Of a stretch of 64,000 nucleotides of DNA, positions 53,085 through 64,000 are shown piece after piece (position 1 is the first letter of the stretch; the number at the start of each line of letters is the position of its first letter). The notes below the pieces were generated by a model. It saw only the letters and a list, made by a program, of their open reading frames with translations. It was not told where the DNA came from and did no database searches. This stretch comes from a bacterium (GTDB lineage Bacteria > Desulfobacterota > Binatia > Binatales > Binataceae): positions 1 through 64,000 of the forward strand of contig JADBKU010000019.1 of the NCBI GenBank assembly GCA_014896235.1, in the 5' to 3' direction. The translations under genes were made by a program, and so were the position numbers.

Positions 53085-56000
53085 ATCCGTCGCGCATCTT
53101 TATTCTGCGGCCGGTTGCGACGTCGCTGCTGATGGCGGCGATCCTGCTGACCGGGCTTATCGCATACAAGGAATTGCCGGTATCGGCGTTGCCCGAGGTC
53201 GATTACCCGACTATCGAGGTCGTGACGTTCTATCCGGGCGCGAGCCCGCCGGTGATGGCGTCGTCGGTGACGGCGCCGTTGGAGCGCCAGTTCGGACAGG
53301 TGCCCGGACTGACGCAGATGACGTCGAACAGCTCGTTCGGCAGTTCGATAATCACGCTTCAGTTCACGCTTTCACTGAATATAGACGTGGCCGAGCAGGA
53401 AGTGCAGGCGGCGATTAACGCGGCCGCGAGCTATCTGCCCGCCGACCTTCCAAATCCGCCGATCTACAGCAAAATCAATCCGGCTGACGCGCCGATTCTG
53501 ACGCTGGCGCTCACATCGAAAGACCTGCCGCTCGATCAGGTCGAAGACCTGGCCGATACGCGGCTGGCGGAAAAAATCTCGCAGGTTTCCGGCGTCGGCA
53601 TGGTGAGTATCGGCGGCGGACAAAAGCCGGCCGTGCGGATCGAAGCCAACCCCACCGCGCTCAGTGCGTACGGGATCAGCCTCGAACAGGTGCGAGCCGC
53701 GATCGCCGCGGCGAACGTCGATGAAGCGAAAGGGAATTTCGACGGCCCGCTGCAGGCCTATACGATCGGGGCCAACGACCAACTGCTCACGGCCGCCGAT
53801 TACCGGCCGCTGATCGTCGCCTATCGCAACGGCGCGCCGGTAAATCTGTCGAGCGTGGCGAACGTCGTCGATGCGCCCGAGAACATTCAGCAAGCCGAAT
53901 GGATGAACGGCGCTCCGGCGGTGATTCTGAGCGTCGAGCGCCAGCCCGGCGCGAATATCATCGCGGTAGCCGACCGGGTCAAGGCGCTGCTGCCGCGCCT
54001 GCAAAGCACGCTGCCGCCGTCGGTCCACCTCGCAATACTGACCGACCGCACCACGACGATCCGCGCCTCCGTCGCCGACGTGCAATTCGAGCTGATGCTC
54101 ACCGTCGCGCTGGTCGTGATGGTCATTTTCCTCTTCCTGCGGAAGCTCGAAGCGACCATCATTCCCAGCATCGCCGTGCCGCTCTCGCTGATCGGCACGT
54201 TCGGCGTGATGTATCTGCTGGGCTACAGCCTCGACAACTTGTCATTGATGGCGTTGACGATTTCCACCGGCTTCGTGGTTGACGACGCAATCGTGATGAT
54301 CGAGAACATCACGCGCTTCATCGAAGACGGAATGGCGCCGCTGGAGGCGGCGCTGCGAGGCTCGCGGCAAATCGGCTTCACGATCGTATCGTTGACGGTT
54401 TCGCTGATCGCCGTGTTGATTCCGCTGCTCTTCATGGGCGACATCGTCGGCCGGCTGTTCCGCGAATTCGCGGTGACGCTCGCGGTGACGATTCTGGTTT
54501 CGGCGGTCGTTTCGCTGACGCTCACTCCGATGATGTGCGCGCGGCTGCTGCGGCGCATCAGCAGCGCGGACGAAGGCCGGTGGTACCGCGCATCTGAACG
54601 CGCTTTCGAGTCCACGCTCTCGCTCTATGAGCGAACGCTGAAATGGGTGCTGGCGCATCAGGGACTTACCTTGATCGTCGCCGCTGGGACGCTGGTGCTG
54701 ACGATTATTCTGTACATTATCGCGCCAAAAGGATTTTTCCCGGTCGAGGACACAGGCGTGATCCAGGGCGTCTCGCAGGCGTCGCCTACGATTTCATTCG
54801 ATGCGATGGTGCGGCGGCAGCAGGAACTCGCGCAAGTAGTCCTGAAAGACCCGGCGGTCGAAAGCCTGTCGTCCTTCGTCGGCGTCGATGGAACCAATAC
54901 GACGCTTAACAGCGGCCGGATGCTGATCAATCTGAAGCCGTTGGCGCGGCGGCGCGTCAGCGTCGAGACGGTGATCGACCGCCTTCAACCCGAGCTGGCC
55001 CGCGTGCCGGGAATCAAGCTTTATCTTCAGCCCGTGCAGGACCTGACCGTCGCCGACCGCGTGAGCCGCACCGAATATCAGTACAGTCTTGAAGATCCGA
55101 ATCCCGGCGAACTCAAAATCTGGACGAAGCGGCTGGTGGACAAGCTGGCGACGATGCCGCAGCTCGCCAACGTCGCGACCGATGCGCAGAACGGCGGTCT
55201 TGAAGCACGCCTGGAGATCGATCGGGCGACCGCGTCGCGGCTTGGCGTGACGCCGCAGATGATCGACGACACTCTGTACGACGCCTTTGGGCAGCGGCAG
55301 ATTTCGACGATTTTCACCCAGCTCAACCAGTATCACGTGGTGCTGCAGGCGGAGCCGCGATTCGAGAACGTCCCCGCCGACCTGAGCGACATCTACCTGC
55401 CGACATCGTCCGGCGGAGTCACGCCGCTCGCGGCGTTCACGAAAATCGTGGAGACGACGGCGCCGCTGGTCATCAATCACGAAGGTCAGTTTCCATCGGT
55501 GACGATCTCGTTTGACGTTGCGCCCGGTTATTCGCTGGGAGACGCGGTTGACGCGATTCAACGTGCGACCAGGGAAATCGGGATGCCGGCCAGCATCGCC
55601 GCCAGTTTTCAGGGCACGGCGGCGGCTTTTCGCGCCGCGCTGGTGAACGAACCGCTGCTGATTCTGGCCGCGCTCGTGACGGTCTACATCGTGCTTGGCG
55701 TGTTGTACGAAAGTTATATCCATCCGCTGACGATTCTTTCGACGCTGCCGTCCGCGGGAGTCGGCGCGATTCTCGCCTTGATGATCTGTGGTTTGGATCT
55801 GAACGTGATCGCGCTGATCGGCATCATCCTGCTGATCGGCATCGTCAAGAAAAACGCGATCATGATGATCGATTTCGCGCTCGAGGCGCAGCGCGACGGG
55901 GGCAAGACGGCGCTCGAGGCGATTTATCAAGCCTGCCTGTTGCGGTTTAGGCCGATCATGATGACGACCATGGCGGCGCTGCTGGGCGGACTGCCGCTCG

Positions 56001-56194
56001 CGATGGGCACGGGCGTGGGCGCCGAGTTGCGCCGGCCGCTGGGGGTGGCGATCGTCGGCGGCTTGCTTTTGAGCCAGTTGTTGACGCTTTATACGACGCC
56101 GGTCGTATTCCTCGCGTTCGAGCGATTGGCGGAACGTTTCAAGCGTGCCGATCGCACGGACGCTCCGGGCGCGGCATCGATGCGCGCAGCATGA
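53081..56194 (+). CDS. RND efflux pump inner membrane subunit (MdtB-like)
   Basis: 1037 residues starting at a GTG that overlaps the adaptor stop. N-terminal [50 protein letters not shown] and the repeated topology of 12 membrane helices with two large periplasmic loops are typical. The proton-relay aspartates lie in [16 protein letters not shown]. It exports drugs, bile salts or similar compounds using proton motive force. The MdtB/MdtC heterotrimer suggests hetero-assembly with the next gene. Confidence 0.96.
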
Positions 56195-59100
56195 ACGTTT
56201 CCGAACTTTTCATCCGTAATTCGGTTGGCACTACGCTGCTGACGATCGCGATCGCCCTGGCGGGCGTCGTGGGCTTCCGGATGTTGCCGGTCGCGCCGCT
56301 GCCGGAGGTGGAATTTCCGACGATCATGGTTCAGGCGACGTTGCCCGGCGCGAGTCCCGAAACCATGGCCTCGTCGGTCGCGACGCCGCTCGAGCGCCAA
56401 TTCGGCCGCATCGCGGGCCTGACCGAATTGACCTCGACCAGTTATCTCGGCACGACCGCGATCGTCATGCAGTTCGATCTGAGCCGCGATATCAACGGCG
56501 CCGCGCGCGATGTACAGGCGGCGATCAACGCCGCGCGGAGCAACCTGCCCGCGAATCTGCCCGCGAATCCGACCTACAAGGAAGTCAATCCGGCCGACGC
56601 GCCGATTCTGATCATCGCGCTGACATCGAATACCATCAGCCGCGGCCGGATGTACGACGCGGCGTCTTCGATTCTGGCGCAGAAGATTTCGCAAATCAGC
56701 GGCGTTGGAGAGGTCTTGGTCGGCGGCGGCGCGCTGCCCGCGGTGCGCGTCGATCTGAATCCCACCCAGCTCAACAGCTACGGCATTAGCCTCGAGCAAG
56801 TGCGCATGACGCTCGCGGCGGCCAACGTCAACCGGCCGAAGGGCGAGCTTGAATCCCGCGACCGGTCGGTGGTCCTCGACGCGACCGATCAACTGTTCAA
56901 AGCCGCGCAATACCAGCGGCTGGTCGTCGGCTATCACGACGGCGCCGCCGTGACGCTGGCCGATGTCGGCCGGGTTACGGATTCCGTGCAGGACGTTCGC
57001 ACCTCGGGCATCGTGGACGGCCGTCCCGCGGTGATGCTGATCATCTTCCGCCAGCCCGGCGCCAACATCATCGACGCGGTGGACAATATCCGGGCGGCGC
57101 TGCCGCAACTGCACGCTTTCCTGTCGCCCGCGATCAATCTTTCCGTCGTTCTCGATCGCAGCACCACGATTCGCGCCTCGGTGCGCGACGTCGAACTGAC
57201 GCTGCTGGTCTCGATGGCGCTGGTGGTGCTGGTGGTCTTCGTCTTCCTGCGCAATCTGCGCGCGACGATCATTCCCGGAGTGGCCGTGCCGATCTCGCTG
57301 ATCGGGACCTTCGCGGTGATGTACCTGTGCGGCTACAGCCTCGACAATTTGTCGCTGATGGCGCTGACGATCTCGACCGGATTCGTGGTCGACGACGCGA
57401 TTGTGGTGATCGAGAATATTTCGCGTTACCGGGAACAAGGGCTCTCGCCGCTCGAAGCGGCGCGGCGCGGCGCGGCCGAGATCGGCTTCACAGTGATTTC
57501 GATCAGCGTTTCGCTGATCGCCGTTTTCATCCCGATTTTATTGATGGGCGGAATCGTCGGACGACTGTTCCGCGAGTTCGCCGTGACGCTGTCGGTCGCC
57601 ATCGCCGTCTCGCTCGTGATTTCACTCACGACGACGCCGATGATGTGCGCGAAGCTATTGCGCCCGATCGACGATCATCCCGCCGGAGCCTTCCATCAGT
57701 TGGCGGAGCGGATGTTCGACCGGATGGCCGATGGGTATCGCCGAAGCCTCGCGTGGGCCTTGCGCCATCGGCGGCTGATGCTTGCGGCGACGTTGGCGAC
57801 GGTCGCGTTAAGCGTCTATCTCTACGCCGTAATTCCCAAGGGCTTCTTCCCAGAGCAGGACACCGGCCGCCTGATGGGCATGATTATCGCCGATCAGGAG
57901 ACTTCCTTTCAGTCGATGCGCGCGAAGCTTGCGCGCTATACGGAGCTTGTGAACGCGGATCCGGCGGTGGAGCACGTTATTGCATTCACCGGCGGGGGCG
58001 GCGGCGCCACCAACAATGGTCGCATGTTTATCGCGCTTAAACCGCTGGCGGCGCGCAAAATCAGCGCCGCGCAGGTTATCAGCCGGTTGCGCCGACGCAC
58101 CGCGTCCGTCGCCGGCGCGCGCCTGTATCTTCAAGCGGTGCAGGATCTCCGCATCGGCGGGCGGCTGGAAAACGCGGAATATCAATACACCCTGCAAAGC
58201 CAGGATCTGGCGCTGCTCAATAGATGGGCTCCGCGGTTGCTCGCCGCGATGCGACGATTGCCGGAACTGCGCGACGTAAGCAGCGACCAGCAGAATAGCG
58301 GCCTTGACGCGGCGCTGGATATCGATCGGGATACCGCCGAGCGGCTCGGCGTATCGACGCAGACGATCGACAACACGCTTTACGACGCATTTGGGCAGCG
58401 CGAGGTCTCAACGATGTATACGCAGTTGAATCAGTATTACGTCGTGATGGAGGTCGCGCCGGAGTTCTGGCAGGCCCCGCACTGGCTCAAGGAGATTTAC
58501 GTTCAGGGATCCAATGGCGCGATGACGCCCTTGAGCGCTATTGCGCGCCAGACCAAAACCGTCACGCCGCTCGACGTAAATCATCAGGGGCAATTTCCGG
58601 CGGTGACGATATCGTTCAACCTCACACGTGGCGTGGCGCTTGGCGACGCCGTCAGCGCGATTCAGGCCGCGGAGCGCAAAATCAACCTGCCCAGCGGCAT
58701 CCGCGGCGATTTCGCCGGAACCGCGCAAGCCTTCACGGCTTCGCTGACGAACGAACCGCTGCTGATTCTGGCCGCGCTGGGCGTCGTGTACATCGTGCTC
58801 GGCATTCTCTACGAAAGCTACGTGCATCCGATAACGATTCTTTCGACGCTGCCGTCGGCAGGAGTGGGCGCGCTGCTCGCGCTCATGATCTTCCATACCG
58901 AGCTGAGCATCATCGCGCTGATCGGCATCATCCTGCTGATCGGCATCGTCAAGAAAAACGCGATCATGATGATCGATTTCGCGCTCGAGGCCGAGCGCGG
59001 CGCCGGCGTCGGTCCCAAAGAGGCGATCTATCAGGCGTGCCTGCTGCGCTTCCGGCCAATCATGATGACCACGATGGCCGCGTTGCTGGGCGGCCTGCCG

Positions 59101-59295
59101 CTGGCGCTCGGTACGGGGATGGGATCGGAATTGCGGCGGCCGCTGGGAATCGCGATCGTCGGAGGGCTGGCGGTGAGCCAGGTCCTCACTTTGTACACGA
59201 CTCCGGTTATTTATCTGTACCTCGACGAATTGCGGCTGTGGCTGCAGCGAGTCGCCCGAGAGGGTCAGCGCCGGCTCGGATTCAACGTCGGTTGA
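56191..59295 (+). CDS. RND efflux pump inner membrane subunit (MdtC-like)
   Basis: 1034 residues, with an ATGA overlap with the first pump. N-terminal [42 protein letters not shown] and [19 protein letters not shown] (proton-relay aspartates) are characteristic. The two pumps are similar throughout, as expected of MdtB/MdtC. It should form a mixed trimer with its partner. Together with the adaptor it is a complete three-gene MdtABC-type operon. It ends 135 bases before tRNA-Ser. Confidence 0.96.
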
Positions 59296-59430
59296 GCGCC
59301 GCGCGCTGCGCCGGTTGACGGATTCGGCCAAAGCCTTCCGCATTCGTGCGCGAGGCGCGATGGAACGGCGATCGAACCGCTCATCCTTGCGCCCTTCAGA
59401 TCGTTCAAATACCAATGGAACTCATGACGC

Positions 59431-59521
59431 GGAGGGGTGGCCGAGCGGTTGAAGGCGCCGGTCTTGAAAACCGGAAGCGGCTCACCGTCGCTCGTGGGTT
59501 CGAATCCCACCCCCTCCGCCA
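59431..59521 (+). tRNA. tRNA-Ser (anticodon UGA), with encoded CCA
   Basis: A 91-base tRNA with a long variable arm. The acceptor arm pairs GGAGGGG with CCCCTCC, followed by the G discriminator and an encoded CCA. The anticodon stem is CCGGT/ACCGG around CTTGAAA, so the anticodon is TGA (59465-59467), reading UCA and UCN serine codons. The T-arm loop is GTGGGTTCGAATCCCAC. It is the common kind of integration site for mobile elements, and remnants of a recombinase lie immediately downstream. Confidence 0.97.
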
Positions 59522-59524
59522 CTT

Positions 59525-59652
59525 CCGAACAGAAATGCTAACGCCGGGCGTAACCGGCTTTACGCCGGCCGCGGCGGTCAGCGTCTGAAGCAGGCTGCTT
59601 TTCGAGCCGATGATACGGACCTCGCGGTCTGCGACCTCAACGCGCTGGGCGA
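59525..59652 (-). pseudogene. C-terminal remnant of a site-specific recombinase
   Basis: About 42 codons resembling the last residues of serine-type (resolvase/recombinase) proteins: QRVEVADREVRIIGSKSSLLQTLTAAAG and VRKWRR. It has no stop before the tRNA, and read-through would enter the tRNA sequence. It is fused in frame to the cut 3' end of the DHA2 transporter. I identify it from memory of such tails, which often follow the form RVEV-x5-RI-x-GSK, so it needs confirmation by a search. Confidence 0.55.
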
Positions 59653-60412
59653 GCGCCGACAGGATCGTAGCGTAGACCACCCACGGCGACGCGAACCAGT
59701 CGGCCCGCTGGCCGCGATCGAGCACGATCTGGAGCGCGCCGAGGCTCAGAACCAGCAACAGGATGCCGGCGTAATCGACCGCGCCCCGCGCCTTTTCGTG
59801 GTTGCGCAAATACGGCGGATCGTGAACGAACGCCGCCGCCATCGCGAACGCGGCCACGCCGACCGGCACGTTGATATAGAAGTTCCAGCGCCAGTTCCAG
59901 TTGTCGGTGATCCATCCGCCGAGCGTGGGACCGAGAATCGGCGCGACCATCAGGCCCACGCCCCACAGCGCCATCGCCATCTGCTGCTCTTCGGGCGGAA
60001 AGGTCTCCATCAGTATCGCCTGCGACGACGGAATCATGGCGGCGCCGGCCGCGCCCTGCAGCAGGCGAAAAATAATCATCTGGCTTAACGATTGGGCCGC
60101 GCCGCACAGCGCCGACGCCGTCACGAAAGTGAAGACCGAGAGCAGGAAATAACGCTTGCGGCCGAAGCGCGACGAAATCCACGCGGTCATCGGGATGACG
60201 ATTCCGTTGGCGACCAGGTAACTGGTCACCACCCACGCGATTTCGTCGACGCTGGCGGAAAATGCGCCCTGCATGTGCGGCAGCGCGACGTTGACGATCG
60301 AGGTGTCGAGCACTTCGAGCGTCGTGCCGAGCATCACCGCGAGCGCGATCAGCCACTTGTGCGCGTGGAGATCATACGCGGCGTCGGGATGCGCTTCCGG
60401 GATGTCCGCCAT
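59650..60412 (-). pseudogene. DHA2 (EmrB/QacA) MFS transporter, 3' half missing
   Basis: About 254 codons of a 14-helix multidrug transporter whose normal length is about 500 residues. The N-terminal half is intact: HKWLIALAVMLGTTLEVLDTSIVNVALPHMQG, SSRFGRKRYFLLS, AILMETFPPEEQQMAMALWG and GPTLGGWITDNWNWRW. After WVVYATILSAL the frame joins the recombinase tail. The ATG at 60412 abuts a reverse-transcriptase fragment, so its native promoter region is also replaced. As it stands it should be non-functional, although it could be expressed as a short membrane protein. Confidence 0.8.
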
Positions 60413-60417
60413 CGATA

Positions 60418-60690
60418 GTGCGCTTTCAGCGATTGGAGCGCCAGATGCGGACTTCGCTTCGGCCGAAAGCCATAGGAGAAGCCGAGGAAGTCCACCTCGT
60501 AGATGGCACTCAGGACTTCGGCGACCGCGCCTTGGACGATTTTATCTTCCAGCGCAGGTAGACCGAGCGGTCGCTGTCCGCCGTCGGACTTCGGTATATA
60601 GACCCGCTTTACCGGCAGTGGCCGATACCGGCCCAAGTGAATCCGCGCATGAAGTCGCTCCAGATTTTGCGCAAGTGGCCTGCACCCCGC
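60418..60690 (-). pseudogene. fragment of a group II intron reverse transcriptase/maturase
   Basis: About 90 codons in a 141-codon frame: LAQNLERLHARIHLGRYRPLPVKRVYIPKSDG, then RPLGLPALEDKIVQGAVAEVLSAIYEVDFLGFSYGFRPKRSPHLALQSL. These match the N-terminal RT region of LtrA-type proteins (before the YADD box). The 3' end continues into the MFS start and the 5' end meets the IS3 element. No intron RNA domain V could be recognised around it. Only this piece is left. Confidence 0.82.
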
Positions 60691-60739
60691 CAGCCCGACA
60701 GGTTTGAGGTAGAGTCCGTCACGAAAAGGAGACGGACGG

Positions 60740-61006
60740 ATGAAGGGCAGCCGGTTCAACGAGGAGCAAATCATTGGGATCCTGCGCGAGCAGGAAGCGG
60801 GAGCGAAGACCCAGGAGGTGTGTCGGCGCCACGGGATCTCGGACGCGACCTTCTACAAATGGAAGGCTAAGTACGGCGGGCTCGAGGTGTCGGAGGCGCG
60901 CCGGCTGAAGTCGCTGGAGGACGAGAACCGGCGGCTGAAGAAGCTGTTGGCCGAGGCCATGCTCGACAACGCTGCGCTCAAGGACCTGCTCGGAAAAAAC
61001 GCTTAG
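60740..61006 (+). CDS. IS3-family transposase OrfA
   Basis: 88 residues from an ATG with AGGAG upstream. The N-terminal helix-turn-helix is [43 protein letters not shown] leucine-zipper-like heptad follows: [27 protein letters not shown]. It binds the element ends. The 3' end contains a run of six A's (60994-60999) at codons GGA AAA AAC, before the stop, suited to a -1 ribosomal frameshift into orfB, which yields the active OrfAB fusion. Confidence 0.92.
60994..61003 (+). other. probable programmed -1 frameshift site of the IS
   Basis: Six adenines at 60994-60999 followed by CGC. Shifting by -1 here leaves the OrfA frame and continues as [10 protein letters not shown] through a run of open codons to the [11 protein letters not shown] start region of OrfB at 61057 without a stop. 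This matches the A6-type slippery sites known in IS3-family elements. Confidence 0.6.
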
Positions 61007-61056
61007 CGCCTGCGGCGCGACGGGCAGCCGCGGCACAGCTCATCGAGCAGTATCGC

Positions 61057-61869
61057 TTGAGCCGGGTGCGCGCCTGCAGGCTGGTGGGACTCAATCGGTC
61101 GAGCCTGAGCTACAGGGCCCGACGGCCCGATGATTCGACCGTACGGGAACGACTGCGCGAGCTGGCGGCGGAGCGGCGCCGTTTCGGCTATCGGCGGCTG
61201 GGCTGGCTGCTGGCGCGGGAAGGTCATGTGATGAATCGCAAGAAGCTCTATCGCATCTATCGCGAGGAAAGGCTCATGGTGCGCCGGCGCGGACGGCGCA
61301 AGCGTGCGATCGGCACGCGCGCTCCGCTCGCTCTGCCCGACGCGATCAATCGACGCTGGTCGCTCGACTTCGTCTCGGACGCGCTGGGCGACGGCCGGCG
61401 CTTCCGCATCCTGTGCGTGGTCGACGACTTCAGCCGCGAATGCCTGGCCTGCGTGGTCGATACCTCCATCGGCGGCGTGCGCGTGGTGCGCGAACTGGAG
61501 CGCCTGGCGCTGGAGCGTGGCCTACCAGGAGTGATCGTCAGCGATAACGGCTGCGAGCTGACCAGCACGGCGGTGCTGCGCTGGTCGCTCGGCCGACTCG
61601 ACTGGCGCTACATCGCGCCGGGCAAGCCCGTGCAAAATGCCTTCGTCGAATCCTTCAACAGCCGCTTGCGCGATGAATGCCTTAACGAGCATGTATTCCT
61701 GAGCCTGGCCGAGGCGCGGGCGACCATCGCAGCCTGGCGCGACGATTACAACCATTGCCGCCCGCATTCGAGCCTCGGCGCGCTGACGCCATTCGAGTTC
61801 GCGCGGCTCAAAACGGAGAGACAGATTCCGCCCCCTGCGGGGGAAAATGAACCAGGACTCTACTTATGA
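61057..61869 (+). CDS. IS3-family transposase OrfB (DDE integrase)
   Basis: 270 residues as an independent frame; the real product is probably the OrfAB fusion. [17 protein letters not shown] and [41 protein letters not shown] precede the integrase core. Catalytic residues are visible in RWSLDFVSD (Asp), [10 protein letters not shown] (Asp) and [14 protein letters not shown] (Glu). The C-terminal [17 protein letters not shown] is typical. It cuts and joins DNA at the IS ends. Its stop lies inside the right terminal sequence. Confidence 0.95.
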
Positions 61870-61962
61870 ACTGATGGGCATCGGGGAGCAGGCCATGCTT
61901 CCGTGAATCTGCGCCGGCACGATGATATCGCAGAAGGGTAACTTTCCTGATCAAAGGCGCCA

Positions 61963-62253
61963 TCATCGACCTTTAGGCTCCTCATTCGGTAGCTCAAGCT
62001 CCCGCTTTAACCGTTCAGCCACGAACATCTTCAGCAGGGACTGGTAGGGCACGTCGCGCTTGTTAGCGAGAAGTTTAAGGCGGGCGAGCATCGGCTTCGG
62101 CAGGCGCAGCGAGATCGTTTGCGATGAAGGCCGAAGGTTCGGGAGCGTTACCCGCTTCGCCCGGCGCCAATCGATGAAATCGGCCGAGTCGTGTTTGGCC
62201 CAGAACTCGCGCTCAGCCTCCTCGTTCTTGAATCGCGGTATCGGCTTTTTCAT
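61963..62253 (-). CDS. CopG/BrnA-type antitoxin
   Basis: 96 residues. Conserved KPIPRFKNEEAEREFWAKHDSADFIDW leads to a ribbon-helix-helix at the end: TISLRLPKPMLARLKLLANKRDVPYQSLLKMFVAERL. This is the antitoxin layout that pairs with BrnT-type toxins. Its ATG overlaps the toxin stop by four bases (62253-62250), so toxin is translated first. The ribbon-helix-helix probably autoregulates the operon. It lies within the mobile zone. Confidence 0.85.
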   Translation of the reverse strand: MKKPIPRFKNEEAEREFWAKHDSADFIDWRRAKRVTLPNLRPSSQTISLRLPKPMLARLKLLANKRDVPYQSLLKMFVAERLKRELELPNEEPKGR

Positions 62254-62552
62254 GATTCTTTGTAAACCTTCCGCTCCTTTCGGCTCATGTCGCGGGCTGA
62301 AATCACGCGAATTCGCCGCGCCCGGACAGTGAACGCCACGAAAAGCTGCCGGCCAGCGTCGGTCTGGCCAAGCGCATAAAATCGGTCTTCGTGCTCCGAA
62401 TGCCTTTCGTCCTCACCGACGATCAGCGGCCGGTTAAAAAACAACTCTTCGCACTCAGTTGGCGTCACTCCATGGCGTTCCCAGATCTTGGCCGAGTTGC
62501 CAGCATCCCATTGGAAGCCCTCGCACTCGCCCAGTCTCTCCTCCCAGCCCAT
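62250..62552 (-). CDS. BrnT family toxin (RelE-fold ribonuclease)
   Basis: 100 residues. FQWDAGNSAKIWERHGVTPTECEELFFNRPLIV and DERFYALG-like EDRFYALGQTDAGRQLFVAFTVRARRIRVISARDMSRKERKVY are the BrnT signatures (conserved R-V-I-S-A-R-D). It would cleave RNA when free of the antitoxin encoded next. The pair forms an operon, toxin first. It lies between the IS3 element and the integrase-core transposase. Confidence 0.9.
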   Translation of the reverse strand: MGWEERLGECEGFQWDAGNSAKIWERHGVTPTECEELFFNRPLIVGEDERHSEHEDRFYALGQTDAGRQLFVAFTVRARRIRVISARDMSRKERKVYKES

Positions 62553-62940: not shown

Positions 62941-64000
62941 TCAGCTTGATGAACCAATAGTCACGGTCTTCTCCCCTTCCGTGGTGGCGATCGCAGCGAA
63001 CACCAGCCGGCGGGCTCGCTCCGCACGCCAGGCTCTAACGCGCCGCTGCAAGGTCCGGAGCTGGGCGCCAGTTGGGTAGAGGTCGGGCAAGCGATGGCGC
63101 AACCGCATCAGCAGTTCGCTGGCGGCGAGGTTAGGTTCCGCCGTCAGCCAACCTTCCACCAGCGGCCAACTGTCGGCGAACGGATCGGCGCGGTTTCTCC
63201 ACCAGTGTTTGGTCGTGTTTTTTCTTCGCCCTTTGGGCGCGCGGTAATCGCTATGCCATGCCGTCGCGAATGCAGTTAGGTACTGCGGCTGGTCCGGGGA
63301 GCCAACGGCGCCGGCATCACGATTGGAAAGAGACGACAACTCTCGCTGCGCTGCGCGGATGGTCGTTAGCAGCGCGACCGGATCGAGCGCCGCGAATCGC
63401 TCGTGCAGGCCTTGCTTAACGGTTTCGTCGATCCGCTCGGAGGCGAGCAGACGCTGATACGGGGTGAGTGGCCGATGATAGCGTTTACGCACCAGCGCGC
63501 CGTCGCGCTGTTTACTCGCCAGCTTGAACGATGGCTGGAAGAAGTTGACGTAGAGCCGGGCGCTCTCATACAGGTGCTGGAGCGCGGCGGCCGCAGCGAG
63601 CCCGCTCAGTCGCCCGTATCCGGCTAAACGCCGCACCACCGCGCCGTTCTTCTGCTCGACCCAGGCTTGGTCGTTCTTGAGATAAGCGCGCGAGCGGGTC
63701 CATTCAATCCGATGCTGGTTGCAATAGCCCTGCAGGGTCTCGTTCATGAATGCGCTGTCGTTGTCGGTATCGAGCCCGCGCAACGCAAAAGGCAGACGCC
63801 GGGAGACCGCACTGATTCCTTCCACCACCAAACTTTGTTCGCGCACCGCCAGAGCTGCGCATTCGGTCCAGCCGCTGTGAATGTCGGTCAGCGTGAGGGT
63901 ATGGACGAAGTTGCCGCCCTCCTTGACTCCGCCGCAGTGCTCGACCAGATCGCATTCGAAATATCCCGGCGGCGGATCGCCCCAGTCAGCGAAAGTCCGC
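62941..64000 (-). CDS. integrase-core transposase (ISNCY/IS481-like), partial, runs off the right edge
   Basis: About 353 codons are open to the window end; the stop is at 62941 and the true start lies outside. The integrase core is visible: TFADWGDPPPGYFECDLVEHCG (first Asp), RGLDTDNDSAFMNETLQGYC (second Asp) and KNDQAWVEQKNG (Glu), roughly 35 residues after the second Asp. LYESARLYVNFFQPSFKLASKQRDG and a charged C-terminal domain (RRLVFAAIATTEGEKTV) follow. An internal GTG at 63846 begins a shorter version. It moves DNA by a DDE reaction. The element's ends are not seen. Confidence 0.85.
   Translation of the reverse strand, partial: RTFADWGDPPPGYFECDLVEHCGGVKEGGNFVHTLTLTDIHSGWTECAALAVREQSLVVEGISAVSRRLPFALRGLDTDNDSAFMNETLQGYCNQHRIEWTRSRAYLKNDQAWVEQKNGAVVRRLAGYGRLSGLAAAAALQHLYESARLYVNFFQPSFKLASKQRDGALVRKRYHRPLTPYQRLLASERIDETVKQGLHERFAALDPVALLTTIRAAQRELSSLSNRDAGAVGSPDQPQYLTAFATAWHSDYRAPKGRRKNTTKHWWRNRADPFADSWPLVEGWLTAEPNLAASELLMRLRHRLPDLYPTGAQLRTLQRRVRAWRAERARRLVFAAIATTEGEKTVTIGSSS

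Follow-up and report, generated by a model that had tools for sequence, protein, structure and literature searches.

A large serine recombinase remnant at a tRNA-Ser gene in a Binataceae genome and its relatives at tRNA gene 3′ ends

The window, as we call the 64,000-nucleotide stretch of Binataceae DNA that was analysed, contains an uninterrupted minus-strand open reading frame of 335 amino acids (60412-59405 in an ORF scan of the window) in which half of an MFS transporter, the tail of a recombinase and the antisense strand of a tRNA gene follow one another, and this raises the question of how three such parts came to be read as one. In profile searches, residues 27-245 match MFS_1 (Pfam, 7e-46) and residues 22-255 match TIGR00711 (DHA2 EmrB, 8e-85), the latter at profile positions 3-231 of 485 and thus over the N-terminal half only. 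An earlier note on this DNA had placed a break in the transporter at about residue 254, and the transporter homology ends at about residue 252-255. The 44 residues that follow match the C-termini of genes annotated as ‘recombinase family protein’, after which the frame passes antisense through tRNA-Ser(UGA). The same note had the frame running into the tRNA without a stop, which is correct as to the antisense entry and incorrect as to the stop, since the frame closes 26 bp after it has passed the 5′ end of the tRNA.

The transporter part (59657..60434, minus strand) reproduces only a portion of an MFS gene of the DHA2/EmrB type, comprising a short 5′ leader and about the first 252 codons. An intact version encoding 532 amino acids is located on contig C45 of the window's genome, and comparison with it gave 98.7% identity over 786 bp (59649-60434), with an exact match of 716 bp at 59670-60385, about 10 mismatches clustered at 60386-60405 and identity again in the terminal 29 bp. 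Since the copy in the congener G003 has the same leader as that of C45, C45 is taken as the native place of the transporter. The fragment in the window is a partial second copy and the transporter was not split by an insertion, so the other half of the gene, which had been expected further to the right, is not to be sought there. In the start region, the window contig (C11) reads MADIPEAHPDAAYDL and the congener G001 reads EAHPDAAHDL, while C45 and G003 have MAAIL-type starts. The mismatch patch at 60386-60405 is an allele difference, and it suggests a short recombination patch; a mutagenic cause for it was considered and dropped, as a congener has the same allele type. At the other end, comparison of the window, C45 and L054 sequences (L054 being a locus with an intact recombinase, described below) revealed an 8-bp microhomology common to both parents (59649..59656; GCGCTCGC on the coding strand), and the join lies somewhere within it.

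A partial repeat of this kind invites the explanation that a metagenome contig was misjoined, in assembly or binning, through the repeated transporter sequence and that the chimera existed in no cell. The 716-bp exact repeat common to C11 and C45 is a classic place for a misjoin, and the window contig ends at 64559, 559 bp beyond the window. We nevertheless consider an artefact unlikely, given that the fragment breaks are sharp at both ends, that the patch of ~10 mismatches near the start codon matches a congener allele (EAHPDAA), unlike a collapsed repeat, and that the assembly also holds two exact 1,220-bp IS copies inside contigs. Moreover, the junction of recombinase tail and tRNA, which is the main point, is independently present in many genomes.

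The recombinase part (59522..59656, minus strand; about residues 253-298 of the frame, with a W codon in the tRNA CCA) matches an intact large serine recombinase (LSR) of 578 amino acids at L054 with 82% over 57 amino acids (E 1e-22) and 84% at the DNA level. The L054 protein contains PF00239 (1.5e-29) together with PF07508 and PF13408. Similarity to recombinases was thus found in the residues past the transporter, where the earlier note had supposed the C-terminus of a site-specific recombinase. A Pfam search of the window found no Resolvase catalytic domain, no Recombinase domain (PF07508) and no zinc ribbon (PF13408), and the window piece is a C-terminal LSR remnant and not a working member. 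As the catalytic domain and the other element end are lost, its membership in the family is based on 44 residues and on position.

To find relatives, a 74-residue query of tail plus antisense tRNA was searched against 57 genomes, the window's own included, at E 0.001. Matches were obtained in 37 of the 57, most of the weaker ones covering the tRNA-coded part only and looking like antisense-read tRNA genes. Recombinase tails proper were present in the window's genome and in G028, G009, G003 and G033, and each of the latter four adjoins a tRNA-Ser gene (anticodons CGA, TGA, GCT and GCT, respectively). The only intact gene in the window's family is that of G028, which encodes a protein of 578 amino acids containing Resolvase, Recombinase and zinc ribbon domains; its contig may be misbinned, as 5,557 bp of it are 100% identical to a MAG that bears the label Xanthobacteraceae. 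When genome contigs were scanned with the intact protein, 565 relatives were obtained, the best 80 of which were used, a set that favours tRNA-Ser cases because the six search peptides included one derived from the part of the tail encoded by the tRNA.

In 72 of these best 80 of 565, an antisense tRNA was present at a fixed place by the recombinase 3′ end (67 Ser, 4 Glu and 1 Arg), and the 67 tRNA-Ser genes comprised 22 with anticodon CGA, 22 TGA, 18 GGA and 5 GCT. The tRNA starts 67, 76, 78 or 79 bp past a fixed point in the gene (178 in one locus), the recombinase frame enters the tRNA in 71 of the 72 loci, and, of the 79 loci whose WR motif could be read, 70 have the tRNA CCA as the W codon. 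As a control, 657 other open stretches of at least 200 codons in the same loci were inspected, and 2 of them had an antisense tRNA near the stop. These counts agree with the attachment site at a tRNA that the earlier note had proposed. Eight of the 80 recombinases had no called tRNA; by eye, two are cut by contig ends, two run into tRNA-like sequence and four join other sequence. The label Alphaproteobacteria applies to 71 of the 80 loci. On a Paracoccus plasmid (L061:1977-2778), DUF6499 and DUF2285 genes, of a type that we take to be an ICE excision activator, lie upstream of a decayed recombinase copy at tRNA-Ser. A search of phages for recombinase relatives returned a single one (58%), on a human faecal ‘bacteriophage’ scaffold (L216) whose end resembles another tRNA by eye.

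The position of the crossover was approached through an insertion outside tRNA genes. In the plasmid pKPC_CAV1176, a 23.9-kb element with traG and trb genes and an LSR-family recombinase splits istA of IS1326, and an intact istA, representing the empty site, is available in NZ_LT985305.1. The three-way comparison assigns the recombinase end to the element through TGGC and places the crossover within the next GCGCC; the TGGC is also kept at the recombinase end of the non-tRNA insertions that were read. At merA in pBH3a, one junction only was found. The other (left) element end reads (host)TGGNGN/GCC..., the slash marking the boundary, and translation in the recombinase frame gives a peptide of the type ..DDDEHYVYAIAL-stop.

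A search with the left-end pattern took in 50 genomes of LSR loci (50 of the 80 loci) and matched in 31, with no match in the other 19, 2 matches for the reversed control and 0 in viral contigs. It also gave 0 matches in the window's own genome, consistent with the earlier view that one side only of the element survives. All 22 left ends that share a contig with their recombinase lie upstream of it on the same strand (21 computed, L094 from coordinates); several others are on contigs other than the recombinase's. The core dinucleotide is equal at both ends in 21 of 21 readable pairs (19 GG at tRNA-Ser and 2 GT at tRNA-Glu), and the paired ends delimit elements of 2.6-48 kb, plus one doubtful case of 197 kb. 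A few left ends on contigs without a paired recombinase have no TGGCG on the host side, as expected if host sequence extends to the core. Very small elements, with 2.6-4.7 kb between paired ends and little room besides the recombinase gene, were seen at L076, L075, L078, L134 and L074. At G122:C33:29768-31421, L225 and L134:213, several left ends fall within 1.7 kb and one left end is preceded by recombinase-tail-like sequence, which suggests tandem insertion at one tRNA-Glu site.

Transferred to the window, the 21 end pairs and the istA comparison would put the 2-bp core, GG on the recombinase strand, at 59516..59517, which we take to be tRNA nucleotides 71-72. The window has one element end only, so the equality of the core is known from the relatives. 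The next four bases, G73-C-C-A of the tRNA (59518..59521), would be supplied by the element, in keeping with the TGGC retained in non-tRNA insertions. Because the element would supply only G73-CCA, the tRNA would survive and no displaced fragment would be produced. The earlier note had suggested looking to the right for another copy of the tRNA 3′ end, and none is to be expected, since the recombinase would move only the last few tRNA bases. The island of Bradyrhizobium BTAi1, which is 43,861 bp long, illustrates this: a search with the last 18 tRNA bases (up to 3 mismatches, that strand, 400 kb) found no displaced 3′ fragment and matched only another tRNA-Ser, although the far end of the island is at 476,892. 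The core position explains the absence.

The same evidence bears on whether the site is the work of a tyrosine integrase, the recombinase tail being a passenger. It is usually tyrosine integrases that use tRNA genes, an Arm-DNA-bind_3 integrase fragment follows the same tRNA in G003, and the window's genome has 14 Phage_integrase matches. Even so, this is very unlikely, as 70 loci have the recombinase end meeting the tRNA at one and the same base, the paired ends have a common 2-bp core and not a long tRNA fragment, and the insertion in istA, for which an empty site is available, has the same ends. The G003 fragment itself (P4-type tyrosine integrase, after the same tRNA-Ser(UGA); L157:1447-1860, minus strand, G003:C80) indicates that two unrelated kinds of integrase have used the tRNA-Ser(UGA) site. 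A further congener has a methyltransferase gene of the Eco57I type just past the same tRNA (L058:1916-3547, minus strand, G006:C49), and the site is possibly a defence hotspot.

On the host side, ARAGORN called an intact tRNA-Ser(UGA), anticodon TGA, at 59431..59521 on the plus strand, which would be the integration target. It is flanked by an RND (AcrB-type) transporter gene (56191..59295, plus strand; PF00873, 1077 bits) that forms the chromosomal flank of the attachment site. The same-genus genome G003 is 93% identical to the window over 55579-59521, that is, to the last base of the tRNA, and diverges after it, again in line with the attachment site proposed earlier. Of 25 Bradyrhizobium relatives compared with BTAi1, 24 match its tRNA and 5′ flank from a point no more than 3 bases from the 3′ end of the tRNA; in one, the match starts earlier. 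By these sequence comparisons, the tRNA is host DNA. An empty chromosomal site was sought in the 25 Bradyrhizobium genomes, none of which matches BTAi1 beyond the element, and the flanks after the tRNA all differ at the 14 loci with a tRNA match at which they were read. A same-site empty chromosome for a tRNA insertion was not found among these relatives, whose downstream flanks all differ.

That the tRNA is cargo of an element whose recombinase inserts elsewhere is highly improbable: mobile elements do carry tRNA genes in general, but here the tRNA and its 5′ flank are chromosomal in G003 and the 25 Bradyrhizobium relatives, the conserved element end does not include the variable tRNA, and the element ends bracket a region that leaves the tRNA outside. 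Highly improbable, too, is a domesticated functional protein consisting of a six-helix transporter half with a new tail, since, despite 335 open codons and the retention of the native start codon and a short leader stretch, half of the DHA2 fold is missing, the tail is accounted for by the attachment site, an intact transporter copy exists elsewhere, and the fusion is absent from the tail loci of G028, G009, G003 and G033, to judge from their similarity to the window in the sequence past the tail.

The in-frame fusion is probably an accident, and a working transporter is unlikely; the fused frame itself is ordinary, dead island debris. It does serve as a warning, because its tail would receive a protein annotation although its end is antisense tRNA. 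The sequence to the right of the fusion is of the same character. A fragment of a group II intron reverse transcriptase, with neither end complete, occupies 60435..60675 on the minus strand (TIGR04416 at residues 34-120 of the ORF at 60349-60774, E 6e-30). It is followed by an IS3-family insertion sequence (60676..61895, plus strand; IS3 model) with ends TGGCCTGCACCCC / GGGGAGCAGGCCA that is 100% identical to C2:67333-68552 and is without a target duplication in the window, the C2 copy having a GTAT duplication. Beside it, a BrnT toxin / CopG-type antitoxin pair (61963..62552, minus strand; PF04365, PF12441) is probably cargo or a later arrival, and an rve (DDE) transposase-like gene (62941..63999, minus strand; PF00665) runs off the window. 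The transporter piece, the intron fragment, the IS3 element and what lies further right are ordinary island debris.

Taken together, the locus is very probably the scar of an LSR-family integrative element that used the tRNA-Ser 3′ end as its attachment site and later decayed. As judged from intact relatives, the recombinase gene would have stood at one end of the element with its last codons running into the tRNA antisense, and the recombinase would have catalysed a crossover at the 2-bp core, at tRNA nucleotides 71-72, after which the GCCA of the element would have finished the tRNA. In the circular form, the other element end would complete the recombinase gene with an acidic tail ending AL-stop, and integration would convert this native tail into the antisense-tRNA tail. 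The element in the window would subsequently have lost all but about 45 recombinase codons, and the partial DHA2 copy would then have been joined by microhomology, beside the intron fragment and the IS elements.

The proposed change of tail draws on 45 distinct left ends, in which the stop falls right after the AL codons in 33, one codon later in 7 and two codons later in 1, with none nearby in 4. The stops differ in letters and lay outside the search pattern, which argues that the left-end peptide is under coding constraint; in the integrated state, this peptide is cut off from its gene. At L123, the recombinase gene is in one piece, the fused form, and ends KWR-ATTDDDEHYVYAVAL-stop. Because the left end completes the recombinase frame with a conserved acidic AL-stop tail, integration would appear to exchange the native recombinase tail for one encoded by the antisense tRNA.

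Target choice was examined with a quick tree of 70 recombinases, from which the eight without a tRNA and two truncated reads had been left out. The Ser anticodon label was no more clustered than when shuffled (37 changes, all labels, versus a shuffled mean of 37.9), and two sets of identical tree rows carry different tRNA labels. The core label changes once on the tree, and the tRNA-Glu users form one clade with a support of 99. These observations fit a mode of recognition that would use features common to all tRNA-Ser together with a core that must match. We put forward tentatively, as a possible but rather doubtful extension, that a widespread clade may read the tRNA-Ser acceptor/T-arm on one side only and cross at nucleotides 71-72, with the C-terminal swap acting to switch the enzyme from an integrating to a resting state and back.

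The scar is real, and it leads to a family of serine recombinases whose target is unusual and whose attP spans the gene. If a clade of LSRs at tRNA genes is confirmed, it would escape tools built on the displaced-fragment signature, it would provide integrases whose target every bacterium possesses, and it would offer a simple test of one serine integrase accepting four tRNA-Ser genes of differing sequence. The gene-spanning attP likewise makes an integration-dependent switch of tail directly testable.

Genomic islands classically land at tRNA genes, which is credited to tyrosine integrases. To our knowledge, tRNA genes are a kind of target that serine recombinases were said not to use. The intact relative resembles known LSRs (phiC31, Bxb1, TP901-1, Ccr and TnpX types) in its Resolvase-Recombinase-zinc ribbon architecture, and a 2-bp core fits that group; the nearest solved chains include an integrase, YokA, TP901-1 integrase and TnpX. 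It differs from known LSRs in that the target is a tRNA gene 3′ end and attP lies inside the recombinase gene 3′ end. With the Trb/TraG-type ICEs of Proteobacteria, the pKPC_CAV1176 element has traG and trb genes in common, whereas the window shows no conjugation genes and several paired elements measure 2.6-5 kb, so conjugation genes are not general in elements of the family.

Within the open-licence PMC literature searched, no description of a tRNA-Ser LSR family was found, and a term search of Durrant et al. 2022 did not return ‘tRNA’. Mycobacterium papers, in the portions consulted, associate tRNA sites with tyrosine integrases, and a Mesorhizobium survey, in the sections available, reports six elements with serine recombinases (PMC8627217). 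For the Paracoccus phage vB_PamS_Pami6, a serine recombinase is predicted at tRNA-Met as a single case (PMC6536676); going by that description, which was available in part, it is like the present family in that a serine recombinase is predicted at a tRNA gene, the gene there being tRNA-Met. The Islander tyrosine-integrase islands, as far as the excerpted account describes them (PMC4383910), are similar in inserting at a tRNA 3′ end, restoring the target and having the integrase gene beside the tRNA, and differ in enzyme chemistry, the gene that abuts the tRNA in the present family being that of a serine recombinase, and in that the present family leaves no displaced tRNA fragment; because of this, Islander criteria would miss LSR elements. 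Serine integrases of streptococcal ICEs in rumA, again according to the available passages, have a direct repeat in the integrase gene at one end, and their integration exchanges the C-terminal coding part (PMC4701971). They share with the tRNA family, as seen in its left ends and at L123, an att core inside the integrase gene 3′ end and a tail that would be replaced on integration. The difference, within the same partial view of those systems, is that in rumA the partner is a protein gene and both proteins are changed, whereas in the tRNA family the tRNA remains complete and the tail gained is encoded by its antisense strand.
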